Source: Kineococcus aurantiacus
GTDB lineage: Bacteria; Actinomycetota; Actinomycetes; Actinomycetales; Kineococcaceae
DNA: 64,000 nt
Reading direction: 5' to 3'
NCBI RefSeq assembly: GCF_013409345.1
Contig: NZ_JACCBB010000001.1
Location: 1,240,001 to 1,304,000, forward strand
The notes below the pieces were generated by a model. That model was not told the DNA's origin. It made no database searches and saw only the letters and a program-made list of their open reading frames with translations. A program made the position numbers and the translations under genes. Every line of letters starts with the position of its first letter. The first letter of the stretch is position 1. Below are positions 984 to 38,449 of this stretch, one piece after another.

Positions 984-991
984 CGTGGTGT

Positions 992-1080
992 CCATCCAGA
1001 GCGGCCGAGAGACCTGGCTCGTCGACGCCGCAGCAACCCCCTGAGCCGTCAGGCGCGGGTGCTTCCGCCAGGACCGATGG
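992..1080 (+). ncRNA. SAM-I (S-box) riboswitch A
   Basis: The S-box core is present in order: CCATCC (5' arm of P1), AGAG plus the P2 arm, ACCTGGCTCG, the closing P2 arm GCCGC, GCAACC, a variable P3 loop, GGTGCTTCC, GCCAGG and the P1 3' arm GATGG. CCTGGC (1012-1017) can pair with GCCAGG (about 1067-1072), matching the known L2-J3/4 pseudoknot of SAM-I RNAs. Two more copies in the window (11170-11258 minus and 12808-12888 plus) share the same core and differ mostly in the P3 loop, as expected for a folded RNA. Downstream lie a leader peptide, an FAD/NAD(P) protein and an ABC importer. The P1 3' arm abuts the leader's purine-rich ribosome site (GGGAG), which favours translational control. Confidence 0.92.
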
Positions 1081-1090
1081 GAGTGGCAGC

Positions 1091-1183
1091 GTGAACGGTC
1101 GAACCGCACCCGGCAGTCTCCTCGTCCGGCGTCGTCACGTCGACCTGGGCCGCCTCAGCTCGGCGGTCTGTGCGGGGGTCTGA
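1091..1183 (+). CDS. Leader peptide of the R-R-H-V-D-L type (30 aa)
   Basis: A GTG start lies 11 nt after the riboswitch's P1, followed by 30 sense codons and TGA. The peptide contains RRRHVDLGRLSSAVC. Two other short frames next to S-box riboswitches in this window carry the same motif (RRHVDLLRQSSAL at 12899-12979; RRVVDLCRRASSAC at 11052-11162), although their DNA and N-termini differ. That is strong evidence that the peptide is translated and selected. Peptides of this type are annotated in actinomycetes as 'putative leader peptide', often near sulfur genes. A single Cys codon sits near the end. The first structural gene starts 72 nt after the stop. A regulatory rather than a stable protein role is inferred. 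Confidence 0.8.
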   Translation: MNGRTAPGSLLVRRRHVDLGRLSSAVCAGV

Positions 1184-1255
1184 CCCCCCGTCCGTCGCGG
1201 CTGCGCCCGCGGACGTCCACTGCGCCGGTCCCGGCGCGGACCTCCGGAGCTGTTC

Positions 1256-3229
1256 GTGTCCCCCACCCCCGCTGTCCCCACCCGCTCGCTCGGCGTCGTC
1301 GGCGCCGGCCCCCGCACGCTCGTCCTGCTGCAGCGCCTGGGCGCGCGCTGGGCGGCCTCCGGCGACGACCGCCCGCTCGACGTCCACGTGGTGGACCCCT
1401 TCGACTCCGGCGCCGGCCGCGTCTGGCGGGAGGCGCAGGACCCGCTGCTGTGGATGAACTCGCGCGCCGCCGACATCAGCGTGCTGCCCGACGAGTCCGT
1501 CACGGGGCTGACCGAGCCCATCCTGCGCGGCCCCGGGCTGGCGCAGTGGGTCGCCGACCACCGCGCCGCCCTCGCGCACGAGGCCGCCCTCGCCGGCGAC
1601 GACCTGCTGCGCGAGGAGGTCCTGGCGCACGGGCCCGGCTCGTTCACCTCCCGGCGCCTGGCCAGCCGCTACTTCGCCGACGCCTGGCGGCGGACGCTGG
1701 ACGCGCTGCCCGCCGGGGTGCGGGTCCACCGGCACGCCCGGACGGTCCTGGACCTGACCGACGACCCCGTCGACGGGAGCCAGCACCTGCACCTGGCCGG
1801 GCGGGAGGACACCGTCCGGGTCGACGCCGTGCTGCTCGTGCAGGGCCACCTGGACGTGCGTCCCGGGCCGCGCGAGCGCCGCAACGAGGCGTTCGCCCGC
1901 ACCCACGGCCTGGCCCACGTCCGCCCGGGGTACACCAGCGACCAGGACCTGGACGTGCTGCGGCCCGGTGCGGACGTCGTCGTGGTCGGCATGGGCCTGG
2001 CCTTCGTCGACCTGGTGGTGCGGCTGACCGAGGGCCGCGGGGGCCGGTTCAGCGAGAACCCCGACGGGAGCCTGGAGTACCGGCCCAGCGGGCGGGAGCC
2101 GCGCCTGCACACCGGCTCGCGCCGCGGGGTGCCCTACCGCTCGAAGATCGACTACGACCTCCCGCGGGACCTCGGGCTGCCGCGCCACTACTCCGCGGCC
2201 ACCGTCCAGGCCCAGTTCGGCGACGCCGCCCTGGACCTGCGCGCGGACCTGTGGCCGCTCATCGCCAAGGAGCTGGCGGGGGCGCACTACCGCGAGCTGT
2301 TCCGCACCCACCCCCACCGCACGACGCTGGCCGCCGCGGAGTTCGACGCCCGCTTCTCCCGGGCCCCCTGGGGGTCGGCCGAGGTCGACGAGCTCGTCGA
2401 GCGGGCCGTGCCGGACCCGGCCGACCGGTTCGACCCCGCCGACCTGGACCGTCCCCTCGACGCGTGGTGGGGCACCTCCGGGGACGAGGTGCACGAGCGC
2501 GTCCTGGACCACCTCGAGCGGGACCGGGCCCGGCGCAGCGACCCGCGCCACTCCCCCGACGGCGCCGTCGTCGCGGCCCTGCTGTCGGCCTACGTGGTGA
2601 CCGCGGGCCTGCACGCCGCGGGGCGGCTCAACGCCCGCTCGTCCGCGCTCGACGTCGACGGCTGGTGGCACGGCTTCTTCAGCTACGTCGCCAGCGGCCC
2701 GCCGCCGCACCGGCTGCGGCAGCTGTCGGCCCTGGCGCGCGCGGGCGTGCTGCGGTTCCTGGGCGCGGGCCTGGAGGTCGTCGCCGACCCGGTGACGGGC
2801 ACGTTCACCGCCTCCTCCGCCAGCGGCCCGCACCAGGTGCGGGCGCGCGGCCTCGTGGAGGCCCGGCTGCCGGTCCCGGACCTGGAGTGGACCTCCGACG
2901 TCCTGCTGACGCGGTTGCGCGAACGCGGTGACGTGCGCGCCCACCAGGTCCTCGACGGCGAGGCCCGGCTGTCCAACGGCCGGCTCGTCGTGGACGAGCG
3001 GGCCCGGCTGGTCCGCGACGACGGCTCGGCGCACCCGCGCAGGTTCGCCACCGGGGCCTGGGTCTCCGGGGAGGGCGCGGCGCCCGCGTTCGCCCGGCCG
3101 GGCACGGACGCCGAGCTGTTCCGGCGGGCCGACCGGCTCGCCGCCGAGCTGCTGCGGGCCACGCGCGACGCACCGGCCGCCCCCGCCGGCACCACCACCC
3201 TGTCCGACCTGCCTGGAGAACGACGATGA
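1256..3229 (+). CDS. FAD/NAD(P)-binding protein (PF13454-type flavoprotein)
   Basis: 657 aa from a GTG preceded by CGGAG. The N-terminus [14 protein letters not shown] is a dinucleotide-binding beta-alpha-beta motif of the kind in 'FAD-NAD(P)-binding' proteins (NAD_binding_9), and [15 protein letters not shown] (around residue 240) looks like a second Rossmann motif, as in flavin monooxygenases. [15 protein letters not shown] follows the usual pattern in which an acidic residue at the end of strand 2 binds the ribose. The likely role is oxidation of a small molecule, possibly a sulfur or amine compound imported by the next three genes; the substrate is unknown. It is the first gene after riboswitch A and overlaps the permease by 4 bp (ATGA), so it is translationally coupled to the importer and should be SAM-repressed. 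Confidence 0.8.
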
Positions 3230-4191
3230 GCGAGACGACTCGCACCGGCACCGCCCCCCGCCCCGCCGCGGCGGCCGACCGACCCGCGGGCGCGGTCAAG
3301 GTGCTGCCCGCGCGCCACCCGTGGCGGTGGGTGGCGACCGCGGTCGTGGCGGTCCTGGCGGCGATGGCGGTCAACGCGCTCGTCACCAACCCCGCCTGGG
3401 AGTGGCCCACGGTCGGGGAGTTCCTGTTCTCCGCGACGATCCTGAGGTCGATGTGGCTGACGGTGGAGCTCACCATCGCCGGGACCGCGATCGGCCTGGT
3501 CCTCGGCACGGTGCTGGCCCTCATGCGGATGTCGCACAACCCGCTGCTGAAGGCCGTCAGCTTCAGCTACGTCAGCGTCTTCCGGTCGGTCCCGCTCATC
3601 CTGCAGCTGCTGTTCTGGTTCAACCTGGCGATCCTCTACAAGAGCATCGGGTTCGGGATCCCCTTCGGCCCGCAGTTCTGGTCGTTCGGCACCCAGGACC
3701 TCATCGGCCCGCTCACCGCGGCCTTCCTCGGGCTGGGCCTGCACCAGGCCGCGTACTTCGCCGAGATCGTCCGGTCCGGTTTCCTGGCGATCGACCCCGG
3801 GCAGCGGGAGGCGGCGGCGGCCCTGGGCATCCCGCAGGGCCGGCAGTTCTGGCGGATCCAGCTCCCGCAGGCGCTGCGCATCATCGTCCCCACGACGGGC
3901 AACGAGATCATCGGGCTGCTCAAGGGCACCTCGGTCGTCTACATCATGGCGCTGCCCGAGCTCTTCTACCAGGTGCAGGTCGTCTACAACCGGACCGGCC
4001 GGGTCATCCCGCTGCTGCTCGTGGCGGCCGTCTGGTACTTCGTCCTGACCACCGTCCTGTCCTGCTTGCAGTGGGTCGTGGAGCGCTACTACGGCCGGGG
4101 CAGTTCTCGCGCCCAGGACGAGCCGGCCCTGCTGAAGCTCTTCCGCAGCGTGCGCACCGCGCGCGCCCGCCGTCTGGAGGTCACCCGGTGA
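3226..4191 (+). CDS. Amino-acid ABC transporter permease (HisM/ArtQ type)
   Basis: 321 aa. A hydrophilic N-terminal tail of about 35 residues is followed by about five to six membrane helices. The region from [22 protein letters not shown] to the [24 protein letters not shown] segment is the typical BPD_transp_1 domain; EAAAALG...G is the EAA loop that docks the ATPase. [17 protein letters not shown] is characteristic of polar-amino-acid permeases. It likely works as a homodimer because only one permease gene is present. It overlaps its neighbours by 4 bp on each side (ATGA and GTGA). Riboswitch control suggests that methionine, cysteine/cystine or another sulfur amino acid is the cargo; this is inference. 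Confidence 0.9.
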
Positions 4192-4967
4192 GCACACCCA
4201 CCCTCACCCGCCCCGTCGTCCGCCTCGAAGGCGTCCACAAGCGCTTCGGCGCCCTGGAGGTCCTGCGCGGGATCGACCTGTCGGTCGCGGCCGGCACCGT
4301 CACCGTCGTGCTCGGCGCGTCCGGGTCGGGCAAGTCGACGTTGCTGCGCACCATCAACCACCTCGAGAAGGTCGACGCCGGCGTCGTCGAGGTCAACGGC
4401 GAGCTCATCGGCTACAAGCGGGCCGGGAACCACCTGCGTGAGCTCCACGAGCGCGAGGTGCTGCGCCAGCGGTCGAACATCGGGTTCGTGTTCCAGCACT
4501 TCAACCTCTTCCCGCACCTGACGGTGCTGGAGAACGTCGTCGAGGCCCCCGTCTCGGCGCAGCGCCGCAAGCGGCCAGAGGTGGAGGCCGAGGCGCGGGC
4601 GCTGCTGGAACGCGTCGGCCTGGCCGACAAGGCCGGTGAGTACCCGCGCCGGCTGTCCGGCGGGCAGCAGCAGCGCGTCGCGATCGCCCGCGCGCTCGCC
4701 CTCAAACCCTCCCTGGTCCTGTTCGACGAACCCACGTCGGCGCTGGACCCCGAACTCGTCGGTGAGGTCCTGGACGTGATCCGGGACCTCGCCGCGTCGG
4801 GGACCACCATGGTGGTGGTCACCCACGAGATCGGCTTCGCCCGCGAGGTCGCCGACCGCGTGCTGTTCATGCACGAGGGCGTCGTCCTCGAGGAGGGCAC
4901 CCCCACCGAGGTCTTCGACCACCCCCGGCACGAGCGCACCCGCTCGTTCCTCGCGAAGGTCCTCTGA
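4188..4967 (+). CDS. Amino-acid ABC transporter ATP-binding protein
   Basis: 259 aa from GTG at 4188, overlapping the permease stop (GTGA). All ATPase motifs are present: Walker [11 protein letters not shown]-loop ([18 protein letters not shown]), signature [15 protein letters not shown], Walker [15 protein letters not shown] and the switch His in [19 protein letters not shown]. The last stretch, together with [15 protein letters not shown], is typical of the GlnQ/HisP polar-amino-acid group. A slightly longer segment after the Walker A strand ([25 protein letters not shown]) also occurs in the HisP-like subgroup. It powers the permease encoded just before it. It does not look like MetN, which carries an extra C-terminal NIL domain. 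Confidence 0.93.
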
Positions 4968-4983
4968 ACCACCCCACCCCCGA

Positions 4984-5006
4984 CGGTCCGGCGATCCGCC
5001 GGACCG
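4984..5006 (+). promoter_or_regulatory. Intercistronic hairpin between importer ATPase and binding protein
   Basis: A perfect 10-bp stem CGGTCCGGCG/CGCCGGACCG with a 3-nt ATC loop and no U-tract. Hairpins at this place in importer operons often stabilise or split the transcript so that the binding protein is made in excess; that role is inferred here. Confidence 0.5.
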
Positions 5007-5052
5007 CGATGTCGGCCTGCTCCCGGGCGGGCCCGAGCACGAGGAGAACCCC

Positions 5053-6030
5053 TTGATCAGCCGACGTACCTGGCTCCTGTCGCTGGCCGCCACCCCCCTG
5101 GTGGTGTCGGCGTGCGCGTCGGGCAACGCCGACCCCGCCGCGGCCCCCGCCTCCACCAGCAGCACCAGCGGCGGGTCGGGTGTCGACACGAGCCCCGAGC
5201 AGAGCGGCCGCGTCACCGTCGAGGCCGTCCCGGAGATCGCGGCGAAGGTCCCCCAGGCGATCAAGGACCGCGGGACCCTCGTCATCGGGACCACCGGCAA
5301 CGGCGCCCCGCCGCTGAGCTTCAAGGCCGACGACGACAAGACCGTCATCGGCATCGAACCCGACATCGCCCTGCTCGTCGCCGGCGTGCTCGGGCTGAAG
5401 CCCGACATCCAGGCCACCAGCTGGGAGAACCTCTTCCTGTCGATGGACTCCGGCCAGTTCGACGTCGGGTTCTCGAACATCACCGTGACCGAGGAGCGCA
5501 AGGAGAAGTACGACTTCGCCTCCTACCGCGTCGACACCCTCGCCTGGGAGGTCGCGAAGGACTCGGGGATCACGTCGATCGAGGAGCCCAAGGACATCGC
5601 GGGGCTGACCGTCTCGGTCGGTTCGGGCACCAACCAGGAGAAGGTCCTGCTGGACTGGAACGAGCAGCTCAAGGCCGCCGGCGAGGAGGAGGCGACCATC
5701 CAGTACTACCAGCAGGCCTCCGACACCTACCTGGCGCTGAAGTCGGGCCGCATCGAGGCGAACTTCGGGCCGAACCCGACCGCCGCGTACCACGCGCTGG
5801 TCGCGGGCGACACGAAGATCGTCGGGACGGTCCCCGGCGGCGGCACCATCCAGGCCGACATCGCCGCGACGACGAAGAAGGACAACGGCCTCGTCCAGGC
5901 CCTGGCCGACGCGCTGAACCACCTCATCGAGAACGGCGCGTACGCCGAGACCCTCGAGCGCTGGAACCTGTCCAACGAGGCCGTGCCGACCTCGCAGATC
6001 AACCCGCCCGGTCTGCCGAAGACCAGCTGA
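5053..6030 (+). CDS. Amino-acid ABC transporter substrate-binding lipoprotein
   Basis: 325 aa. The start is TTG, preceded by GAGGAG at a good distance. The first 21 residues form a signal peptide (SRRTWLLSLAATPLVVSAC) with a twin Arg and lipobox Cys21. A Ser/Thr/Ala-rich linker follows, then a bacterial extracellular solute-binding family 3 domain (RGTLVIGTTGNGAPPLSF, DIALLVAGVLGLKPDIQ, SWENLFLSMDSGQFDVGFSNITVTEERKEKYDFASY). These are the standard motifs for binding amino acids outside the membrane. It completes the importer with 3226-4967. The operon ends with a strong hairpin right after the stop. Cargo is unknown; a sulfur amino acid is suggested by the S-box. Confidence 0.92.
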   Translation: MISRRTWLLSLAATPLVVSACASGNADPAAAPASTSSTSGGSGVDTSPEQSGRVTVEAVPEIAAKVPQAIKDRGTLVIGTTGNGAPPLSFKADDDKTVIGIEPDIALLVAGVLGLKPDIQATSWENLFLSMDSGQFDVGFSNITVTEERKEKYDFASYRVDTLAWEVAKDSGITSIEEPKDIAGLTVSVGSGTNQEKVLLDWNEQLKAAGEEEATIQYYQQASDTYLALKSGRIEANFGPNPTAAYHALVAGDTKIVGTVPGGGTIQADIAATTKKDNGLVQALADALNHLIENGAYAETLERWNLSNEAVPTSQINPPGLPKTS

Positions 6031-6034
6031 CCCC

Positions 6035-6080
6035 GACGCACGACGGCCCACCCGCTGCGGCGGGTGGGCCGTCGTGCGTC
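6035..6080. terminator. Strong hairpin terminator between convergent operons
   Basis: A near-perfect 20-bp stem (GACGCACGACGGCCCACCCG and its complement) with a short loop lies between the stop of the binding protein and the end of the convergent methyltransferase gene. It can serve both strands. No clear U-tract, as is common in high-GC actinomycetes. Confidence 0.8.
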
Positions 6081-6108
6081 CGCCCCGGCACCGGGCCGGG
6101 CCGGGGTC

Positions 6109-6705
6109 TCAGTCGCCGTGGCGGCGGGCGACCAGGTGCCAGTGCGACACCCCGCTCACCTCGTCGACGACGTCCCGCTCCTCGTGCACGATCTCGCACC
6201 CGCTGGCCAGCAGCGCACCGCGCACGAGGTCGCGCTCCAGCCGCAGCAACCCGGTGCGGGCGGGGCGGCCGACGGGGGCCAGGAGGGAGACCGCACCCCC
6301 GGCGTGGACGGAGGAGGTCAGGGCCGCGACGTCCGCCACGACCTGCGCGAGGGTCCCCCGCGCGGGCAGCACGTCGTGGCACAGGACCAGGTCGAACGAG
6401 CCCGACCCGCCCGCCCGGTGGTGCGTCAGGGCGGCCAGCGCCGCGATGTCGTCCAGGTCCGCGTCGACCGTGCGGACCCGGTGGGCCACACCGGCCTCGG
6501 CGGCCCGTTCCTGGGCCGCCGCCAGGGCCCGCCCCGAGGAGTCCAGCACGGTCACGTCGTGGCCCAGGCGGGCCAGCTCGACCGCGTCGCGGCCGTCGCC
6601 GCCACCGGCGTCCAGGACGCGCAGCGGCGGGGCGCCGAGGCCGGCCAGGACGGGGGCCAGCGTCCCGGCGACGAGCGCGCGGCGCGACCGGGTGCCGGTC
6701 CTCAC
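6109..6705 (-). CDS. Class I SAM-dependent methyltransferase
   Basis: 198 aa from GTG at 6705, overlapping the stop of the cystathionine beta-synthase gene by 4 bp. The motif VLDAGGGDGRDAVELARLGHDVTVLDSS contains the glycine-rich SAM loop (motif I) and the acidic end of strand 2. VDADLDDIAAL and FDLVLCHDVLP match motifs II-III. The C-terminal ...VVDEVSGVSHWHLVARR resembles the SmtA/CmoM-like group, but the substrate is not evident. It is last in the riboswitch C operon (rhodanese, aminotransferase, GNAT, CBS). A role in SAM turnover to SAH, feeding transsulfuration, would fit but is only inferred. Confidence 0.82.
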   Translation of the reverse strand: MRTGTRSRRALVAGTLAPVLAGLGAPPLRVLDAGGGDGRDAVELARLGHDVTVLDSSGRALAAAQERAAEAGVAHRVRTVDADLDDIAALAALTHHRAGGSGSFDLVLCHDVLPARGTLAQVVADVAALTSSVHAGGAVSLLAPVGRPARTGLLRLERDLVRGALLASGCEIVHEERDVVDEVSGVSHWHLVARRHGD

Positions 6706-8189
6706 GCCCCGTCCTCCGGGGTGCGGGGCAGTCCCAGGCGCGCCCGCCGGACCCAGCCGGCGACGCGGCCGTCGACCAGCACCCACGCGGCCGGGAACTC
6801 CCCCAGCGCCTCGCGCGCCTCCTGCGCGCCCTGCCCGACCCCCACGTGCGGCAGGGGCGGGTCGGCGACCTCGCGCAGCGGGGAGCGCGCCCGCGCCGGG
6901 TCCTCGCGCACGAGGGCGCGCAACCCCGCCAGGGTCGTGGCGGCCACGACGTCGCCGAGGGCGCGCGGCCGGCGGGCCTGGTGGCGCGGCAGGACCACCG
7001 CGAGCGGTGTGCGCCCCAGGGCCCCTTCCGCGATGGCCTGCTCGACGGCCTGCCCGACGGTCAGGTCGGCGGCCAGGGCGATGGGGCCGGGGGCGTCCAG
7101 GGCGCCTTCCGGCAGCAGGTCGCGCACCGGGTCCTCGACGCCCTCCTCGAGGAAGCCGTTGTGGCGCAGCCAGTCGTCGTCGAAGTTCTTCGACAGGTAG
7201 GCGCGCCCGGAGTCGGGCAGCAGCACCACGACGACGTCCTGCGGGCCCAGGCCCTCGGCCTCGCGCAGCGCCACCGCGACGGCCGCGGCCGCCGAGCCCC
7301 CGACGAGCAGCCCCTCCTGCCGGGCGAGCCGGCGGCCGGTCAGCAGGGCGTCGCGGTCCTCGAACGGGACGATCGCGTCGAGCACGCCGGGGTGGTAGGA
7401 CTCCGGCCAGACGTCCTCGACGGTGTCGGGGTGCAGGTAGTGGCCGATGGACTCGACCGCCCACGGGCTGCCGTCACCGCCGGAGTACGTCGAGCTCGCC
7501 GGGTCGACCCCGACGACGCGGACCCGGCCGCCGCTGACGGACTTCAGGTACTCCCCCGTGCCGGAGACGGTGCCGCCGGTGCCGACACCGGCGACGAACG
7601 TGGTGAGGCGCCCCCGCGTCTGGGCCCAGATCTCCGGGCCCGTCGTCTCGCGGTGGGCGGCGGGGTTGGCCGGGTTGTCGTACTGGTTCGCGAGCCACCC
7701 GCCGGGGATCTCGGCGGCCAGCCGGACCGCGGTGCTGTGGACGTGCCGCGGGTCGTCGCGCGGCACCCCGCCGGGGACGACGACGACCTCGGCGCCGTAG
7801 GCGCGCAGGACGGCGATCTTCTCCCGGCTCGTCTTGTCGGGGACCACCACGACGACGGGGTGGCCGAGCTGGGCGCCCACGACGGCCAGCCCGACCCCGG
7901 TGTTCCCGGAGGTCCCCTCGACGATCGTTCCGCCGGGGCGCAGCGAACCGTCGGCGCGGGCCCGGCGGACCATCCACAAGGCGGCGCGGTCCTTGACGCT
8001 GCCGCCGGGGTTGTTCTGCTCCAGCTTGACGTAGACGGCGGCCTGCAGGTGGGACGCGGTGCGCCGCAGGCGGATCAGCGGGCTGGAACCGATGGCGTCG
8101 AGGACGGACTCGTGGACGGGGCCGGCGCTCACCCCCAGGCGGAGGTCGTCGGTGGTCCCGGTGATCGGCAGCCGTTCGAGGGTGCTCAC
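6702..8189 (-). CDS. cbs: Cystathionine beta-synthase (PLP enzyme with C-terminal CBS domains)
   Basis: 495 aa from GTG at 8189, which follows GGAAGG by about 7 nt; an ATG 63 nt upstream lacks such a site. The N-terminal two thirds form a fold-type II PLP enzyme: IGSSPLIRLRR, NNPGGSVKDRAALWM (Schiff-base Lys), GTSGNTGVGLA and GVGTGGTVSGTGEYLK (phosphate-binding Gly loop), with SGRAYLSKNFDDDWL near the end of the catalytic domain. The C-terminal about 150 residues carry two CBS motifs (LTVGQAVEQAIAEG...; ALGDVVAATTLAGL). It condenses homocysteine with serine (or related substrates) to cystathionine in reverse transsulfuration. A cysteine-synthase-like activity cannot be excluded. Fourth gene of the riboswitch C operon; 173 bp separate it from the GNAT gene. 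Confidence 0.9.
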   Translation of the reverse strand: MSTLERLPITGTTDDLRLGVSAGPVHESVLDAIGSSPLIRLRRTASHLQAAVYVKLEQNNPGGSVKDRAALWMVRRARADGSLRPGGTIVEGTSGNTGVGLAVVGAQLGHPVVVVVPDKTSREKIAVLRAYGAEVVVVPGGVPRDDPRHVHSTAVRLAAEIPGGWLANQYDNPANPAAHRETTGPEIWAQTRGRLTTFVAGVGTGGTVSGTGEYLKSVSGGRVRVVGVDPASSTYSGGDGSPWAVESIGHYLHPDTVEDVWPESYHPGVLDAIVPFEDRDALLTGRRLARQEGLLVGGSAAAAVAVALREAEGLGPQDVVVVLLPDSGRAYLSKNFDDDWLRHNGFLEEGVEDPVRDLLPEGALDAPGPIALAADLTVGQAVEQAIAEGALGRTPLAVVLPRHQARRPRALGDVVAATTLAGLRALVREDPARARSPLREVADPPLPHVGVGQGAQEAREALGEFPAAWVLVDGRVAGWVRRARLGLPRTPEDGA

Positions 8190-8303
8190 GGTGGGCCTTC
8201 CGGTGGTGGGGCGGGGACGGGGGGCGAGGGCCGGGCCCGGCGACGAGGGCACCGGGACGGCACCGGCGGACCGCGCGGGGTCCGGCGGTCACGCGGACGG
8301 GGT

Positions 8304-8360
8304 CCACCGTCCCGGGCGGGAGCACCCGCGCCCGCGGTCGCCGGGGCGGCGCGGCCCAGG
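8304..8360 (-). other. Possible degenerate S-box remnant upstream of cbs
   Basis: Read on the minus strand, this stretch has CCTGGGC, then GGCGACC, then GGTGCTCCCGCCCGGG and CGGTGG, in the order and spacing of the 3' two thirds of the three S-box RNAs here. CCTGGGC can pair fully (one G-U) with GCCCGGG, as in the SAM-I pseudoknot. The conserved AGAG and GCAACC are missing or changed, and the P1 5' arm would lie inside the GNAT gene. It is either a decayed copy or chance. Confidence 0.25.
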
Positions 8361-8362
8361 GG

Positions 8363-8881
8363 TCAGTCGAAGTCCTTGCCGAAGCAGCGGCTGTGCGCGA
8401 CGGCGTCGTAGGGCGGGTAGACGGGGACGGGTGCCCAGCCCTCGCGCTCGTACAGCGCGATCGCCTCGGGTTGCCGGTCGCCGGTCTGCAGCACGAGGCG
8501 GCGGACGCCGAGCTCCCGGGCCGACCCCTCGACCCGGCGCAGCGCCTGCGCCGCCAGGCCCCGCCGCCGGTGCGCGGGGCCGACGAAGACGCGCTTCACC
8601 TCGTGCCGCAACGGCTCCCCCGCGACGGACAGCCGGCGCAGGCTGGCCGTCGCGGCCGGTTCGCCGCCGGCCAGCGCGAGCCACGCCACGTCGACCTCAC
8701 CGGCGGACGGTGCCGGCGGGTAGGACCGGGGGGCGCCGTCGGGGTGGGCGTACCGGGGGCCGATCTCGGCGTCCATGAGGGCGCGCAGGGCCGCGACGCG
8801 CGGGTCGTCCCAGCCCGTGGCCACCCACGTGACCACGGCCGGCCCGCCCGTCCCGGCACCCGTCTCGAGGCGGACGGTCAC
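8363..8881 (-). CDS. GNAT family N-acetyltransferase
   Basis: 172 aa from GTG at 8881, overlapping the aminotransferase stop by 4 bp. The acetyl-CoA-binding motif A is seen as VKRVFVGPAHRRRGLAAQAL (pattern R/Q-x-x-G-x-G/A). RLVLQTGDRQPEAIALYEREGW is the common C-terminal GNAT segment in which a Tyr sits near the thioester. It transfers an acetyl or acyl group to an amine; the target is unknown. Its place between an aminotransferase and cystathionine beta-synthase in a SAM-controlled operon suggests a sulfur amino acid, an analogue, or detoxification of one. Confidence 0.87.
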   Translation of the reverse strand: MTVRLETGAGTGGPAVVTWVATGWDDPRVAALRALMDAEIGPRYAHPDGAPRSYPPAPSAGEVDVAWLALAGGEPAATASLRRLSVAGEPLRHEVKRVFVGPAHRRRGLAAQALRRVEGSARELGVRRLVLQTGDRQPEAIALYEREGWAPVPVYPPYDAVAHSRCFGKDFD

Positions 8882-10107
8882 CGGCGGGCCAGCGGGGAGG
8901 CGAACGCGACCGCGACGCGGTGCACGGCCTCGCGCAGCTCCTGCGGCGTCAGGTCCGAGAACCCCCAGCGGAAGTGGTCGGGGAACTCGTGCGGGCCGAC
9001 GGGGCTGAAGTACCGGCCGAGCGGGAAGTCGACGGCGTTCTGCCGGGCCGCCTCCAGCGCCCTCTCCAGGTCGATCGCGGGGTCGACGACCCGACCCCAG
9101 ACGAAGATGCCGCCGTCGGCCGGCGGGACCTCCAGGACCCCGGTCAGTTCCTCCGTGACCGCGGCCAGCAGCGCGTCGTGCCGCTCCCGCAGCACGGACC
9201 GGCTGTGCCGCAGCGCCTCGACCAGGTTCCCCGGCGTCGCCAGGAAGCGGTGGACCGCCCGCTGCACCACGAGGGAGGTGTGCTGGTCGGAGTCGCGGCG
9301 GGCGTCCAGGACGGCGCCGATCAGCCACTCGGGGCCGGCGATCCAGCCCAGCCTCAACCCCGGCCCCAGCGTCTTGGAGAAGGTGTTCACGTGCAGGACC
9401 TGCTCGGAGGCCAGGTCCAGGTCCTCGGCGGGCGTGCCGTCGAAGCGCAGCTTGCGGTAGGGGTCGTCGGACAGCACGAGGAAGCCGTACCGCTCGGCGA
9501 GCTCCACGAGCCGCCGGCGCGAGGCCGTCGGGGCGCTCGTGCCCGTGGGGTTCTGGAAGTCCGGGATCGTGTAGACGAGCTTGGGGCGCAGCCCGGCCCG
9601 CAGCTGGGACTCCAGGTCGTCCAGGTCGATGCCGTCGGGCCCGGTGGCGACCGGCCGGGTGTCGACGCGCCGCTGGCGCAGCAGCGTCAGGACGAGCGGG
9701 TACGTCGGGTTCTCGACGAGCACCACGTCGTCGCTGTCCAGCAGCGCGTCGAACACGAGCGCCAGGGAGTGCAGGGCCCCGTTGGTGACGGCGACGCGCT
9801 GGGGCGCGGTGCCCTCGTCGGCCGCGATCCACTCGCGCAGCTCGGGCAGACCCAGCGGCACCGAGTAGCGCAGCGACGGCGCGGCCGGGTCGGCCAGCTC
9901 CTCGGCGAAGGCGCGCGACAGCCCGGCCAGCGGCAGGGCCGCCGCCCCGGGGACCCCGCCGTGCAGGCCGATGGTGCCCTCGACGGGGCTGGCCGGGCGC
10001 GGCCCGAACCCCACGGCGGGCAGCACGTCCCGGGCCCGCCGCGACAGCAGGTGCGGGCCGCTGAGCAGTTCGGGGTCGAGCCCCGCCCCGTCCTCCAGGA
10101 GCGTCAC
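8878..10107 (-). CDS. PLP-dependent aminotransferase, class I/II fold (2-aminoadipate/MocR-like group)
   Basis: 409 aa from GTG at 10107, overlapping the rhodanese stop by 4 bp. The fold-type I core is clear: [43 protein letters not shown] (substrate Asn-Pro-Thr-Gly), [13 protein letters not shown] (Asp and Tyr that contact PLP) and [15 protein letters not shown], where the Lys forms the Schiff base. Sequence style matches the LysN/2-aminoadipate aminotransferases and the catalytic half of MocR regulators, but no GntR domain is attached. In this sulfur operon it could interconvert methionine or cysteine with its keto acid; the substrate is inferred only. Confidence 0.88.
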
Positions 10108-11006
10108 CGGGCCACCTGCCCCGGCTCGGCGCCGACGGCGATGGGCACGCGGACCGCGTTGCCCCACTCGGTCCAGCTGCCGTCGTAGTTGCGCACGTCG
10201 GGCAGGCCGAGCAGGTGGGTCAGCACGAACCACGTGTGGCTGGAGCGTTCCCCGATGCGGCAGTACGCGATCGTCGGCTGATCGGGGTCCAGGTGCGCCC
10301 CACCGGTGGTGTAGAGGGCTTCGAGGGCGGCGCGGTCCTTGAACCGGCCGTCCTCGGCGGCGGCCTGCGCCCAGGGGACGTTCGCCGCCCCGGGGACGTG
10401 GCCGCCGCGGACGGTGCCCTCCTGCGGGTAGTCGGGGATGTTCGTGAGCTGGCCGGAGTACTCCCCAGGGGAGCGCACGTCGATGAGCTGACCGCCGAGG
10501 TGCGCGCGCACGTCGGGCAGGAAGGCGCGGATCGTGCTGTCGTCGCGGTCCACCACGGGGTAGTCGGTCGGGGTGCGCTCGACGGTGTCGGTCGTCAGCT
10601 CCCGCCCCTCGGCGGCCCACGCGGCCCGGCCGCCGTCGAGCAGCCGGACGTCGGGGTGCCCGAACAAGCTGAAGACCCACAGCGCGTAGGCCGCCCACCA
10701 GTTGTTCTTGTCGCCGTACACGACGACGGTGTCGTCACGGCTGATCCCCTTGCGGGACAGCAGCTCGGAGAAACCCTTGCCGTCGAGGTAGTCGCGGGTC
10801 ACCTGGTCGTTGAGCTCGGTGTGCCAGTCGACCTTCACGGCGCCGGGGACGTGGCCGGTGTCGTACAGGAGGACGTCCTCGTCGCTCTCGACGACGACGA
10901 GGCCCTCGCGGCCGAGGTTCTGCGCCAGCCAGGCGGTGCTGACGAGGCGGTCGGGGTGGGCGTAGGCGGCGAACTTGGGGTCGCTGGTGTCGGCGGGGGT
11001 GGGCAT
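10104..11006 (-). CDS. sseA: Thiosulfate/3-mercaptopyruvate sulfurtransferase (two-domain rhodanese)
   Basis: 300 aa from ATG at 11006. Two rhodanese domains: the inactive N-terminal one ([25 protein letters not shown]) and the C-terminal catalytic one with [15 protein letters not shown]. The Cys carries the persulfide and the CRIGERS loop matches thiosulfate sulfurtransferases. The length is typical of the family. It moves sulfane sulfur from thiosulfate or mercaptopyruvate to a thiol acceptor or cyanide. First structural gene of the riboswitch C operon, 45 nt after the leader peptide stop, and translationally coupled to the aminotransferase. A keto acid made by that aminotransferase (such as mercaptopyruvate from cysteine) would be a natural substrate; this is inference. 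Confidence 0.92.
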
Positions 11007-11051
11007 GGGTGTGCTCCGGGGATCGGTGGGACGAGGACGCTGGGCCGGGCC

Positions 11052-11162
11052 TCAGCGACAGGCGCTGCTGGCGCGGCGGCACAGGTCCACCACGCGCCGG
11101 CTGCGGGCGTGGAAGGGCCTGCCCGGACGGCGCCGGGGAGCACGGGACGTGCGGTGCTGCAT
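11052..11162 (-). CDS. Leader peptide of the R-R-x-V-D-L type (36 aa)
   Basis: ATG at 11162 follows GGAGG, which directly abuts the 3' arm of riboswitch C. The peptide is very basic at first (RAPRRRPGRPF) and ends with RRVVDLCRRASSACR. It shares R-R-x-V-D-L-x-R-x-x-S-A with the two other leader peptides here. It has two Cys codons in the last ten. The distance to the rhodanese gene is 45 nt. Conservation among three independent S-box operons supports translation; its purpose is likely regulatory. Confidence 0.78.
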   Translation of the reverse strand: MQHRTSRAPRRRPGRPFHARSRRVVDLCRRASSACR

Positions 11163-11169
11163 CGATCCT

Positions 11170-11258
11170 CCATCGTTCCCGGCGGAAGCACCCGCACCCG
11201 TTCGCACGGGGGGTTGCTGCGGCGTCACGGAGCCAGGTCTCTCAGCCGCTCTTGATGG
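11170..11258 (-). ncRNA. SAM-I (S-box) riboswitch C
   Basis: Minus-strand copy with P1 CCATC/GATGG, AGAGCGGCTGAGAGACC, the GCCGC closing arm, GCAACC, a P3 stem loop and GGTGCTTCC before GCCGGG. CCTGGC pairs with GCCGGG (one wobble) as the pseudoknot. The P1 3' arm reads CGATGG and continues into the AGGAT of the leader's ribosome site, so SAM-stabilised P1 should limit leader translation. It controls sseA, aminotransferase, GNAT, cbs and methyltransferase genes. Confidence 0.92.
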
Positions 11259-11268
11259 TTGCCCCACC

Positions 11269-11298
11269 ACTCTCGCGGGACCGCGAACCGGTTGTCAA
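11269..11298 (-). promoter_or_regulatory. Candidate promoter of riboswitch C operon
   Basis: On the minus strand a perfect -35 TTGACA (11298-11293) is followed after 18 bp by GAGAGT. This places the start about 10 nt before the riboswitch. The -10 is weak, the -35 is good. Confidence 0.45.
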
Positions 11299-11308
11299 TC
11301 CCCCGCCC

Positions 11309-12679
11309 TCACAGGGCCTTGCCCGGGTTGAGCAGGCCCAGCGGGTCGAACACGGCCTTGATGCCGGCCTGCAGCTCGCGCACGCGCGGGGCGAGCTCGT
11401 CGGCCAGCCACCGCTGCTTGGCCGTGCCGATGCCGTGCTCGCCGCTGATGGTCCCGCCCAGGCGCAGCGCCGTCGCGACCACCTCGTCGGCGGCCGCCTC
11501 CAGGCGCTCGGCGGCACCGGGGACCTCGTCGGCGAACAGCAGCGGGTGGAAGTTCCCGTCCCCGGCGTGGGCCACCGCGCGCACCGAGACCCCGTGCGCC
11601 GCACCGATCCTGGTGATCTCCCGGTGGAACTGCCCGATGCGCGAGAGCGGGACCGCGACGTCCTCGCCCACGGCCAGCTCGTCCTCCAGCGGACCACGGC
11701 CGGTCCGGCGCAGCTCCCAGTGGAACTCCGCGTCGTCGCCGTGCAGGCGGCGGGTGCGCCCCCCGGCCCCGGCCAGCGCCGCCTCCACCTCGGCCGCCTC
11801 GGCCTCGGCCCCGTGCCCGTCGGTCTGCACGAGCAGCAGCGCGTCGCCGTGGGCGGCCAGGGACGTGCCCGAGTGGGCGTCGACGTCGCCCAGCGTGGGG
11901 CCGTCCAGCAGCTCGACGACGGCCGGTCGCGCCGTCCCCGCCGTGATCGCCAGCAGGCCCTGCGCGGCCGCGTCGACGGAGTCGAACCAGGCCGCGACGG
12001 TCTCCTCCCGGACCGGCCGGGGCCGCAGCCGCACGGTGATGCCCACGACGACCCCGAGCGTCCCCTCCGAGCCCGTGAACAGCCCCACGAGGTCCAGCCC
12101 GGTGACCCCCTTGATGGAGCGGTGCCCCGTCGAGACGAGGGTCCCGTCGGCCAGCACCACGTCGAGGGCCAGCACCGACTCGCGGGTGACGCCGTACTTG
12201 GCGCACCGCAACCCCCCGGCGTTGGTGGCGACGTTGCCGCCGATGCTGGAGACGCGCCAGCTCGCCGGGTCCGGGGCGTAGCGCAACCCCAGCGGCGCGA
12301 GCGCGGCGTCGAGGTCGGCGCCCAGCACGCCGGGTTCGACCCGGGCCACCTGGTCGGCGGGGGCGATCTCGAGGATCCGGTCCAGCCGCTCGGTGGACAG
12401 CACGATCCCGCCGGCCACCCCGACCGCTCCGCCCGACAACCCCGTTCCGGCCCCGCGCGGCACCACCGGCACCCGGTGCCGGGTGGCCCAGCGCAGCACC
12501 GCCTGGACGCCCTCGACGTCGGCGGGGCGGACGACGGCCAGGACCCCCGCGGGGGCGTCGACGCGGGACCGGTCCGTCACCTCGTGCGCGGCGAACCGGA
12601 CGTCCACGGCACCCGGGAGCGCGGCGTCGAGCTCGGCCAGCGGGCCCGTCAGGACGTCGGGGAGCAGTTCGGTCGTCAT
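11309..12679 (-). CDS. FAD-linked oxidase, GlcD / D-lactate dehydrogenase family
   Basis: 456 aa. The start is taken at ATG 12679, which follows GGAGAAACC; an in-frame start 33 nt upstream has no such site. The N-terminal FAD_binding_4 (PCMH) domain shows VPVVPRGAGTGLSGGAVG and SSIGGNVATNAGGLRCAKYGVTRE. The C-terminal FAD-oxidase domain ends with GTISGEHGIGTAKQRWL, where the His-Gly-Ile-Gly region closes the active site, then FDPLGLLNPGKAL. These are diagnostic of the glycolate oxidase GlcD / D-lactate / D-2-hydroxyglutarate dehydrogenase family, which oxidises 2-hydroxy acids to 2-keto acids. The exact substrate is not determined. It is divergent from the riboswitch B operon and has no S-box of its own. 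Confidence 0.9.
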   Translation of the reverse strand: MTTELLPDVLTGPLAELDAALPGAVDVRFAAHEVTDRSRVDAPAGVLAVVRPADVEGVQAVLRWATRHRVPVVPRGAGTGLSGGAVGVAGGIVLSTERLDRILEIAPADQVARVEPGVLGADLDAALAPLGLRYAPDPASWRVSSIGGNVATNAGGLRCAKYGVTRESVLALDVVLADGTLVSTGHRSIKGVTGLDLVGLFTGSEGTLGVVVGITVRLRPRPVREETVAAWFDSVDAAAQGLLAITAGTARPAVVELLDGPTLGDVDAHSGTSLAAHGDALLLVQTDGHGAEAEAAEVEAALAGAGGRTRRLHGDDAEFHWELRRTGRGPLEDELAVGEDVAVPLSRIGQFHREITRIGAAHGVSVRAVAHAGDGNFHPLLFADEVPGAAERLEAAADEVVATALRLGGTISGEHGIGTAKQRWLADELAPRVRELQAGIKAVFDPLGLLNPGKAL

Positions 12680-12771
12680 GGGTTTCTCCGATCGGGTGGG
12701 GACCTGGAGCACCCGGGGTCGTCACGGGTGCGGTGGGGGGAACACCATCGCACACCGGGGCGGGCGGGAGA

Positions 12772-12800
12772 TTGACGACGGCTGAGAACTCTGCCACGCT
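12772..12800 (+). promoter_or_regulatory. Candidate promoter of riboswitch B operon
   Basis: TTGACG (12772-12777), 17-bp spacer, CACGCT (12795-12800). The start would fall right at the beginning of the riboswitch (12808). Confidence 0.45.
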
Positions 12801-12807
12801 CCCACCA

Positions 12808-12888
12808 CCATCCAGAGCGGCTGAGAGACCTGGCTCGACGACGCCGCAGCAACCTCCTTCGGGAAGGTGCTACCGCCAGGACCGATGG
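12808..12888 (+). ncRNA. SAM-I (S-box) riboswitch B
   Basis: CCATCC/GATGG P1, AGAGCGGCTGAGAGACC, CTGGCTCGACGACG, P2 closure GCCGC, GCAACC, a tight P3 hairpin (CCTCCTTCGGGAAGG), GGTGCTACC, then GCCAGG, which can pair with CCTGGC as the SAM-I pseudoknot. It is the shortest and cleanest of the three copies. GATGG runs straight into GAGG of the leader's ribosome site. Downstream is a leader peptide, then an ABC importer and a riboflavin kinase. Confidence 0.93.
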
Positions 12889-12898
12889 AGGAAACCTG

Positions 12899-12979
12899 AT
12901 GCGGTCCCCGCTGTTCCTGACGACACGTCGCCACGTCGACCTGTTGCGCCAGTCCAGCGCGCTCCCACCCCGGCGCTGA
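12899..12979 (+). CDS. Leader peptide of the R-R-H-V-D-L type (26 aa)
   Basis: ATG at 12899 is preceded by GGAGG eight bases earlier, overlapping the end of riboswitch B. The peptide contains TRRHVDLLRQSSALPPRR. It is the third family member in the window and the only one without Cys. The importer's first gene begins 102 nt after its stop. The shared motif, the fixed place behind an S-box and the good ribosome site support a translated regulatory leader. Confidence 0.8.
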   Translation: MRSPLFLTTRRHVDLLRQSSALPPRR

Positions 12980-13081
12980 GCCCCCACCGCGGACCGGCGA
13001 CCGGCCGCGGCCAGCACCCTCCCCGCCGCGCCGGAGACACCCCGGGCGGTCCACCCCGCACGTCCGAGGAGCCACGTCCCC

Positions 13082-14761
13082 ATGTCCAGCAGCACGTCCG
13101 GCACCGGAGCCGACAAGCACCACCCGTCCCGCCGCACGGTCTCCGCCGCCCTGGGAGCGGGAGCCGTCGGGACCCTGCTGTCCGCCTGCGGCGGCGGCGC
13201 GTCGGGCGCGGACTCCGCGTCGGGCTCCGGGAAGGCGAAGCAGGGGGGCGACATCGTCTTCCTCATCGACTCCCTCGGCGACACCTGGATCCCCGACAAC
13301 AGCGCCATCTCCAGCTTCCAGGGGAACGTCTGGGGGCACGTCACCGACAAGCTCGTGTACGTCGACGGCGAGGGGGAGGTGACCCCGTGGCTGGCGGAGA
13401 AGTGGGAGCAGAACGAGAACGCCACCGAGTTCACGCTCCACCTCAAGAGCGGCGTGACGTTCTCCGACGGCACCGCCCTGGACGCCGCGGCCGTCGTGGC
13501 GAACCTCGACTACTGGGCCAAGGGCCAGGCCGACAAGGGCGTCAACCCGATCGGCCTGTTCCCCAAGACGTACCTGCAGGCCTCAGCCGCCGACGCCTCG
13601 ACCGTCGTCGTCGAGTTCAGCGCCCCGACCCTGGGGTTCATCCCCACGCTGGGGTACCACGGGTCGATCCTCATCTCCCCCAAGACGATCGCCCTGCCGA
13701 CCGAGGGCCAGGCCGACCTCTCCCAGGTCAGCGGCTCCGGCCCGTTCACCGTGAAGAGCTGGAAGGAGGGCGACAACGTCGTCCTCACCAAGCGCGCCGA
13801 CTACGCCTGGGGACCGCAGGCCCTCGGCAAGACCGACGCCGCCACCCTCGACACCATCACGTACAAGATCGTCAAGGAGAGCTCGCTGCGCACCGCGAGC
13901 CTGCAGTCCAACCAGGCCGACGTCGTCTTCAACGCCACGCCGCAGGAGCTCGACGGCCTCAAGGGGGCCGGGTTCACCGTCGCCACGCCGCGCTACCTGG
14001 GGTTCGTCCACGGCTACCGGCTCAACGCGTCCGTCGCGCCCTTCACCGACGTCCTCGTCCGCCAGGCCTTCCAGCACGCCGTCGACCGCGACGAGATCCT
14101 CTCCACCGTCTACACCAGCGACTGGAAGAAGGCGGAGTCCTTCATCCAGTCCAACGTGCCCGAGGCGACCGACCACTCCGCCGAGTTCACCCACGACGCC
14201 GCGAAGGCAAAGGCGCTGCTGGACCAGGCCGGCTGGGTGGCCGGGGCGGACGGCAAGCGCAGCAAGGACGGCCAGCCGCTGGCGGTCACGCTGTTCCCCA
14301 ACCCCTACCTCGTCACGTCGCAGGCGATCGACGAGCTCGTCGCCCAGCAGCTCGGCGCGGTCGGCTTCACCGTCGACCTGCAGACCTTCGACGTCGTGAC
14401 CTACGGCCAGCGGGTCACCGGCAACAAGACCCTGTCGAACTACGAGGTGACCCGCAGCTTCATCGACGTCGGCACCGTCGCCAGCATCCTCACCAGCGCC
14501 AACAAGGGCGAGGACTGGTTCGGCCTCGGCGAGAGCGACCAGACGCTGAACCAGCTGCGCGACGACGTCGCGGGCGCGGTCGACGAGGACGCCCGCACCA
14601 CCTCGGTCGACCAGCTGCAGCAGTACGTCCTGGAGCAGGGGCTGTTCATCCCGCTGGAGCAGATCGTCCAGCGCATCTACGCCTCCCGCCCCGACCTCAA
14701 GGGCGTCAGCTACAACGGGGTGGCGTACGCGAACTTCTACACCGCCCACCTCGAGGGCTGA
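13082..14761 (+). CDS. ABC transporter substrate-binding lipoprotein, family 5 (peptide/opine/nickel type)
   Basis: 559 aa from ATG at 13082. The signal sequence has a twin Arg (SRRTVSAALGAG, residues 16-27) and a lipobox ending at Cys36, suggesting Tat export and lipidation. The family 5 solute-binding fold follows: VWGHVTDKLVYVDGEGEVTPWLAEKWE, FTLHLKSGVTFSDGTALDAAAVVANLDYW, YKIVKESSLRTASLQSNQADVVFN and DVLVRQAFQHAVDRDEI. The length is typical. It captures a peptide-like or other medium-sized ligand outside the cell for the permeases at 14765-16587. S-box control suggests a sulfur-bearing ligand. Confidence 0.92.
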   Translation: MSSSTSGTGADKHHPSRRTVSAALGAGAVGTLLSACGGGASGADSASGSGKAKQGGDIVFLIDSLGDTWIPDNSAISSFQGNVWGHVTDKLVYVDGEGEVTPWLAEKWEQNENATEFTLHLKSGVTFSDGTALDAAAVVANLDYWAKGQADKGVNPIGLFPKTYLQASAADASTVVVEFSAPTLGFIPTLGYHGSILISPKTIALPTEGQADLSQVSGSGPFTVKSWKEGDNVVLTKRADYAWGPQALGKTDAATLDTITYKIVKESSLRTASLQSNQADVVFNATPQELDGLKGAGFTVATPRYLGFVHGYRLNASVAPFTDVLVRQAFQHAVDRDEILSTVYTSDWKKAESFIQSNVPEATDHSAEFTHDAAKAKALLDQAGWVAGADGKRSKDGQPLAVTLFPNPYLVTSQAIDELVAQQLGAVGFTVDLQTFDVVTYGQRVTGNKTLSNYEVTRSFIDVGTVASILTSANKGEDWFGLGESDQTLNQLRDDVAGAVDEDARTTSVDQLQQYVLEQGLFIPLEQIVQRIYASRPDLKGVSYNGVAYANFYTAHLEG

Positions 14762-38336: not shown

Positions 38337-38449
38337 CCGGGGGACCGCGCGCAACGGTGCAGCGATGCAGTGGTGCGGTGGACAACTGAAGACACCCATT
38401 CCACGACGGATCGTCCGGCACGTACCTGCCGGTGGAAGGACACACGACG

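Follow-up and report, generated by a model that had tools for sequence, protein, structure and literature searches.

What does a riboswitch control when the first open reading frame (ORF) behind it is not that of the operon's first gene? The question arises three times in a stretch of 64,000 nucleotides (nt) from the genome of the soil bacterium Kineococcus aurantiacus (NZ_JACCBB010000001.1, positions 1,240,001 to 1,304,000), hereafter the window. There, three S-adenosylmethionine riboswitches of the SAM-I type are each followed by a micro-ORF, and only then by a structural gene. The balance of evidence inclines us, if not by much, to see in these loci a serial device, in which a SAM-I riboswitch precedes a leader-peptide attenuator of the cysteine type that existed before it; the attenuator would read UGU codons and act through Rho. 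The elements on which this reading is built are present in the DNA: aptamers, a Shine-Dalgarno (SD) sequence within the P1 stem, conserved coding peptides, a bias towards UGU, C-rich spacers, a pattern that follows gene families and, elsewhere, sampled members of the peptide family free of any aptamer. The three sites are composed as follows.

989 to 1083, plus strand: SAM-I (S-box) aptamer of site 1 (RF00162, 51.4 bits)
1076 to 1083, plus strand: 3' arm of P1 at site 1, GATGGGAG, containing the SD of leader peptide 1, GGGAG (1079-1083)
1091 to 1183, plus strand: leader peptide 1, 30 amino acids (aa), VNGRTAPGSLLVRRRHVDLGRLSSAVCAGV (NF042934, 31.8 bits, above the cut-off of 27)
1169 to 1171, plus strand: conserved Cys codon UGU of peptide 1
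1184 to 1255, plus strand: spacer 1, C-rich (C 47%, G 33%), 72 nt from peptide stop to gene
1256 to 3229, plus strand: FAD-NAD(P)-binding protein (PF13454), first structural gene of site 1, with an ATP-binding cassette (ABC) permease (PF00528) and a solute-binding protein (PF00497) downstream
11167 to 11261, minus strand: SAM-I aptamer of site 2 (RF00162, 55.0 bits)
11167 to 11171, minus strand: SD of leader peptide 2, GGAGG, the final five bases of the aptamer
11052 to 11162, minus strand: leader peptide 2, 36 aa, MQHRTSRAPRRRPGRPFHARSRRVVDLCRRASSACR (NF042934, 14.9 bits, below the cut-off; similar peptides precede orthologous genes)
11058 to 11060, minus strand: conserved Cys codon UGU of peptide 2, in the context UGU CGC UGA
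11007 to 11051, minus strand: spacer 2, C-rich (C 53%, G 24%), 45 nt from peptide stop to gene
10104 to 11006, minus strand: rhodanese-type sulfurtransferase of site 2 (PF00581; its match to NF008557 is under that model's cut-off)
12805 to 12891, plus strand: SAM-I aptamer of site 3 (RF00162, 64.1 bits)
12887 to 12891, plus strand: SD of leader peptide 3, GGAGG, the final five bases of the aptamer
12899 to 12979, plus strand: leader peptide 3, 26 aa, without Cys, MRSPLFLTTRRHVDLLRQSSALPPRR (NF042934, 30.9 bits, above the cut-off of 27)
12980 to 13081, plus strand: spacer 3, C-rich (C 53%, G 30%), 102 nt from peptide stop to gene
13082 to 14761, plus strand: ABC solute-binding protein of family 5, site 3 (PF00496; its match to TIGR04028 is under that model's cut-off)

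An earlier note on this DNA had claimed three SAM-I aptamers, a micro-ORF of 26 to 36 aa after each, and structural genes 45 to 102 nt further on. All of this holds: in cmscan with the Rfam model RF00162 the aptamers score above the gathering score of 44.4 bits, the peptides of 30, 36 and 26 aa are each led by an SD, and the genes begin 72, 45 and 102 nt past them. The SD had been described as contiguous with P1. The adjacency is there at the three sites, but the SD overlaps P1, of which it forms the last five bases of the 3' arm, instead of merely abutting it. At all three sites the SD of the upstream ORF (uORF) thus lies inside the switching helix, as expected of a riboswitch-controlled uORF of the uPPE2 type.

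How general is this arrangement? The note had seen that it recurs and had underrated its extent. The K. aurantiacus genome has 13 SAM-I and seven SAM-IV sites, and a peptide of the same type, with a VDL core, follows seven of the 13, its SD overlapping P1 in six of the seven. At five other SAM-I sites the structural gene itself begins 5-11 nt past the aptamer, without a peptide, and at one, that of the methylenetetrahydrofolate reductase (MTHFR) gene metF, an ORF of 20 codons comes first, its stop codon overlapping the start of metF. This mixture indicates that the riboswitch acts on whichever ORF comes first, the peptide being an optional first cistron. A ribosome-binding site on the 3' side of P1 is a described SAM-I platform (PMC2258182, in the available part of that paper), and our sites share with it the aptamer and the direct platform; what sets them apart from that description is that the first ORF is so often a leader peptide. 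The association is far from random, since six of the 12 genome matches to the peptide family NF042934 (E <= 1) lie just 3' of a SAM-I site (binomial chance about 1e-20). Among the ORFs listed at most 60 nt after the seven SAM-IV sites no VDL peptide was seen, and SAM-IV as a driver of the peptides was rejected on that ground. In three regions SAM-I and SAM-IV elements lie back to back on opposite strands (G000:C1:1219913-1220218, L004/L032; 1225918-1226260, L002/L026; 1524612-1524942, L008/L031).

We searched 19 genomes, the source genome included; 15 have SAM-I, and 42 of their 97 SAM-I loci carry the peptide, 4-12 nt past the aptamer. Most are in the genus (40/86), with one of four loci in another genus of the same family, one of five in another family of the order, and none of two in two more families of the order. 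Among the matches listed, 12 of 80 further SAM-I loci of the order have the peptide, always with a Cys at position VDL+8 (a narrow motif gave eight of the 80, a wider one 13, from which L157, a chance frame, was removed; 60 of the 61 loci of a further batch were fetched). Outside the order, the narrow motif found the peptide at none of the 30 best-scoring SAM-I loci beyond the source genome, and no other close same-strand pair was visible by eye among the matches listed; a class-wide fusion of SAM-I and peptide was thus rejected. These searches rely on sequence patterns and predicted start codons, and some of the genomes are fragmentary.

Are the micro-ORFs translated into something that matters? 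They had been put forward as conserved peptides, which they are, with the correction that they belong or appear related to a family already catalogued as 'putative leader peptide' (NCBIfam NF042934). Peptides 1 and 3 pass its cut-off; peptide 2 fails it, and is counted as a relative only because of its VDL core, its UGU codon and the context of that codon. The models of Cys-rich leaders Ms4527A and Ms5788A, which we take to stand for the mycobacterial cysteine attenuator leader ORFs, give the window peptides 12.4 to 20.7 bits, under their cut-off of 45: Ms5788A matches all three weakly, Ms4527A matches peptides 1 and 3 weakly, with no match at site 2. Across eight ortholog groups the ratio of nonsynonymous to synonymous differences (pN/pS) is 0.51 in frame vs 0.96 and 2.57 when the same DNA is read in the other two frames, the pairs being non-independent and single groups spanning 0.32 to 0.90. 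The G+C content at third codon positions (GC3) is 0.88 in the 42 peptides (41 distinct ones, once identical repeats are dropped) vs a flat 0.80-0.82 over the 60 nt past the stop. Together these patterns indicate that the frames are under purifying selection as proteins.

The stem that would gate these peptides is also conserved. The five core pairs of P1 are unbroken wherever the peptide occurs (42 of 42 loci). At its three outer positions 51 of 126 cells are paired, a value reached by none of 1000 shuffled arms, whereas at the 55 peptide-less loci 48 of 165 are paired, which 283 of 1000 shuffles reach, i.e. no excess. An SD precedes the peptide start in 42 of 42 loci and overlaps the P1 arm in 39. 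The structural gene has a start with its own SD in 34 of the 42. A TANNNT motif lies 0-16 nt upstream of the aptamer at 68 of the 97 loci vs five of 1940 random upstream places, so that the aptamer probably opens the mRNA.

One codon of the peptide stands out. At VDL+8, 36 of the 39 Cys codons found among the 41 distinct peptides are UGU, as are 44 of 47 once eight peptides of the order are added; four later loci of the order (L170, L188, L190, L196), outside that count, also have UGU. Elsewhere this codon is rare: 3/36 at the other Cys of the same peptides, 8/97 in downstream genes (filtered for GC3 > 0.9) and 0/5 in ten window genes. Fisher tests give 1e-21 against genes and 2e-14 against the other Cys of the peptides, values that are overstated because the sequences are related. 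UGU is seen in eight of the ten groups made within the genus set. Stand-alone members of the family, those without an aptamer, have a Cys at VDL+8 in 34 of 35 cases, and 33 of the 34 are encoded by UGU; where a Cys directly follows VDL, its codon is UGC in 19 of 20, and the other Cys beyond VDL, pooled, use UGU in 15 of 57. In the window the putative regulatory Cys codon is near the end of the ORF at sites 1 and 2. Decoded by way of a G.U wobble, UGU is in our reading a slow or starvation-sensitive codon. That the product could be a small protein acting in trans would agree with the conservation of the RR..VDL core; yet the length and the N-terminus of the peptide vary freely and selection reaches a synonymous position, UGU, as well as the position in cis, which leaves this explanation with very little probability.

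Which genes have the peptide? The architecture follows the gene family, as far as gene calls go. The VDL peptide is present at 8/8 loci of solute-binding family 5, 8/8 of a Cys/Met pyridoxal-phosphate (PLP) enzyme, 7/8 of solute-binding family 1, 5/5 of the FAD protein and 4/4 of the sulfurtransferase. It is absent from all loci of MTHFR (0/10), small rhodanese (0/10), luciferase-like monooxygenase (0/10), ABC ATPase (0/7) and major facilitator superfamily transporters (0/6). The rest of the table consists of one pair without the peptide, ten singleton loci, five of them with it, and a mixed group taken up below; the table omits six of the 97 loci, which have no called gene, and some starts are doubtful (e.g. 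L074, L091, L105). The exception in solute-binding family 1, L042, has in place of the peptide an ORF of eight codons, Cys and Met among them. ORFs of this form, VS[SAP]CM..R, follow SAM-I at three other loci of the order as well (L158, L162, L212) and look like leaders reduced to a minimum, in which Cys and Met codons stand side by side. Another ORF, of 78-88 codons and with a shared stretch YRLLTGPDD..FC, follows SAM-I at L203, L229, L180 and L207; at L203, L207 and L229 it precedes a small rhodanese-like gene.

Where does the peptide come from? We sampled 35 stand-alone loci, 32 from other genomes of the class and three from the source genome, mostly the best-scoring match per genome, and none of the 35 has an Rfam RNA above its gathering score. 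A TANNNT motif 5-10 nt before the start codon, as in leaderless transcripts, is found at 25 of them and an SD at two (several starts were tried per locus); at the SAM-linked loci, with one start each, the counts are 0/42 and 42/42. The genes behind the stand-alone peptides (ten proteins were named) include rhodanese, nitrite/sulfite reductase, 3'-phosphoadenosine-5'-phosphosulfate reductase and solute-binding protein. The sulfurtransferase of the window is 51% identical to one preceded by a stand-alone peptide, and for the FAD protein of site 1 the same genome encodes a paralog (60% identity) that lies behind a leaderless peptide without aptamer. That peptide, L017 (G000:C1:895401), and a second one, L016 (923743), look leaderless, stand alone and end in UGU CGC UGA. 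As the stand-alone loci mostly look leaderless, are free of aptamers and include some placed before related genes, among them the FAD paralog and a sulfurtransferase, the most likely history is that an older leaderless attenuator acquired an aptamer, together with an SD placed within P1. The same facts could be read otherwise: the riboswitch would govern how the operon as a whole is transcribed or how stable its mRNA is, the micro-ORF being a passive remnant of the older attenuator. The existence of the family without aptamers suits this idea, as does the presence of a peptide at fewer than half of the SAM-I loci (42/97). A remnant should not, however, show purifying selection on its frame, an SD kept in 42/42, UGU kept in 44/47 and a strong gene-family pattern, and we regard it as improbable.

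How would the peptide pass the signal on? The full spacers (34 loci) have 52% C and 28% G, with C exceeding G in 34 of 34, vs 38% and 38% in 27 control segments, a comparison weakened by the origin of the controls in one window and of the spacers in many genomes. In the first 70 nt after the stop C exceeds G at 41 of 42 SAM-linked and 34 of 35 stand-alone loci, and the excess of C over G after the stop is 0.24 vs 0.03 for the 70 nt after 44 window genes. A scan around the three leaders of the window found no intrinsic terminator there, leaving at these three the C-rich, G-poor stretch without terminator that characterises Rho-type attenuators. A gene with a Rho RNA-binding domain is present.

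The alternative relay is the classical translational attenuator, in which the SD of the gene would be hidden in a hairpin and opened by a ribosome stalled at UGU. It is the type reported for cysteine genes of M. smegmatis (PMC13236596, in the available text). We compared the folding of 34 of the 42 loci with that of 60 shuffled versions of each, in which synonymous codons and spacers were permuted; in the eight loci left out, gene start and SD were not clear. The gene SD is not paired more strongly than in shuffles (mean z -0.23), nor is it freed more by a stall at UGU (mean z 0.15, standard error 0.17, not significant). Single loci do fit, mainly in the Cys/Met PLP family, where three of six usable loci (L010, L095, L108) combine strong pairing of the SD with relief, to a degree that no more than 10% of shuffles reach for either, and L107 tends the same way; outside it L043, L078 and L092 show relief. 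Two other loci of the PLP family, L085 and L089, go in the opposite direction. A general relay by SD hairpin was thus not supported overall, and we consider this explanation unlikely.

Another relay is suggested by the metF-type loci. At L002 and 16 others (17 of the 21 tried) the stop of an ORF of 11-22 codons overlaps the start of the gene as ATGA or GTGA, possibly a second output of SAM-I akin to termination-reinitiation. One may then suppose that the peptides are mere relays everywhere, SAM-gated translation lifting the operon by termination-reinitiation or by protection from Rho, without sensing of Cys. Such a relay would accommodate the Cys-less peptide 3, and in M. tuberculosis the overlap of uPPE2 works precisely by termination-reinitiation (PMC11260477, as far as the available text goes). 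Yet the VDL-type peptides lie mostly 40 to about 190 nt ahead of a gene with its own SD (34/42 loci), and a mere relay gives no reason for the class-wide conservation of UGU and of the RR..VDL core. We give this explanation a minor, though real, share of the probability.

Under the serial arrangement of riboswitch and cysteine attenuator, SAM binding would stabilise P1, which carries the peptide SD in its 3' arm, and block initiation of the peptide. The untranslated leader would then let Rho act on the C-rich, G-poor spacer and stop transcription before the structural gene. When SAM is low the peptide would be translated; if Cys-tRNA is short, the ribosome would linger at UGU and shield the spacer, and the operon would be expressed, whereas with plentiful Cys the ribosome would leave and expression would fall. 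A gene behind the peptide would be expressed only if SAM and Cys are both low, and its peptide-less sister genes would answer to SAM alone. The whole would amount to an RNA NOR gate, one leader reading SAM through the riboswitch and cysteine through pausing at a near-invariant UGU, the second gate added or omitted per gene family and the aptamer grafted onto an ancestrally leaderless attenuator through the SD inside P1. In this complete form the proposal is tentative, and we hold it at somewhat less than even. The SAM response, the pausing, the role of Rho and the gate logic are what we infer from the sequences.

A precedent for the guarding ribosome exists. In the tna operon, a ribosome at the end of the leader peptide TnaC keeps Rho off the spacer, Trp inducing its arrest. 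The relay we propose would likewise have a ribosome at the end of the peptide guarding the spacer from Rho, with the arrest caused by shortage of Cys instead of by Trp, and a TnaC-like relay of opposite sense is our best guess by analogy. TnaC is also cited as a model in work predicting cys leaders (PMC1262725, in the part available).

The earlier note had proposed a two-tier device of riboswitch and leader peptide relaying by coupling, attenuation or stalling. The peptide SD in P1 at three sites, the separate SD of the gene in 34/42 loci and a layout found at 42/97 loci in a gene-family-specific manner all speak for the two tiers. Of the possible relays, which remain the conjectural part, the SD hairpin lacks general support and a Rho-type one fits better.

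Several observations weigh against our reading. Peptide 3 lacks Cys, as does its single ortholog, L035 (CCA and TCA stand at the position of UGU), and the Cys step therefore cannot hold there. In the family typified by L006 the UGU is at least 15 codons ahead of the stop, and a paused ribosome would therefore not shield the spacer. The conservation of UGU could reflect a motif in the RNA and not the codon as such, an alternative on which the short leaders without VDL bear, their last Cys codon being UGU in 11 of 17. The richness in C is a matter of composition, as computed from sequence, and not a mapped rut site, and the folding result for stalls at UGU gives no proof of Rho. The SD lies 2 nt beyond P1 at three of the 42 loci (L011, which is in the source genome, L073 and L076), and two (L085, L089) have neither ATG nor GTG in the usual place. 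Another luciferase-like group is mixed, with the peptide at one of its three loci (L007, L087, L109). Finally, the closest relative of the gene at site 3 under a species name is that of K. indalonis (82%, a match that itself points to the genus Kineococcus), and its flank, as fetched, has no aptamer and no peptide; the same is true of nine others.

How much of this is new? That a riboswitch may control a uORF first and the operon second is known from M. tuberculosis, for uPPE2-ppe2 under a B12 riboswitch and for Mbox-rv1805A; the Mbox case involves Rho, and uPPE2 relays through an overlapping AUGA (PMC11260477, PMC12810186, available portions). The idea of a riboswitch-gated uORF in the earlier note therefore keeps its layout and loses its priority, having been published for other ligands. 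Our loci resemble these in having a riboswitch with a translational platform, then a small uORF, then the operon. They differ from these single loci with other ligands by the use of SAM-I, by seven sites in one genome and by leader peptides with Cys codons; sensing through amino-acid codons is not described in the available accounts of uPPE2 and Mbox. Cysteine-responsive leader ORFs have been reported in M. smegmatis (Canestrari 2020, as cited in the available text of PMC9094748 and PMC13236596), and Seliverstov et al. 2005 predicted cys leaders, weakly proposing Rho for them (PMC1262725, available part). Ours share with the mycobacterial attenuators Cys codons near the stop, and the NCBI models match two or three of the window peptides weakly. 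The mycobacterial leaders, going by the cited title and the accessible text, are leaderless, lack a riboswitch and have runs of Cys codons, whereas ours are led by an SD, lie under SAM-I and have few Cys. We found no SAM-I-controlled uORF of this sort in the open-licence literature searched; as far as that literature goes, what is new is the joining of such peptides to SAM-I, the way this architecture is distributed over gene families, the change from leaderless to leadered, the UGU rule and the C-rich, G-poor stretch behind the peptide stop.

If the proposal is right, it shows a riboswitch grafted onto an older attenuator, making a leaderless leader peptide ligand-gated. It would also make available a naturally occurring sulfur gate with two inputs, for which a single genome supplies the controls: some sister genes have SAM-I alone, one paralog has just the leaderless peptide, and other genes combine the two. 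Since UGU is nearly invariant here in genomes whose genes use UGC, a widespread peptide family would allow a direct test of how codon choice matters to attenuation. The window contains a further regulatory RNA, an msiK element at 38387-38447 (RF01747, 57.8 bits).

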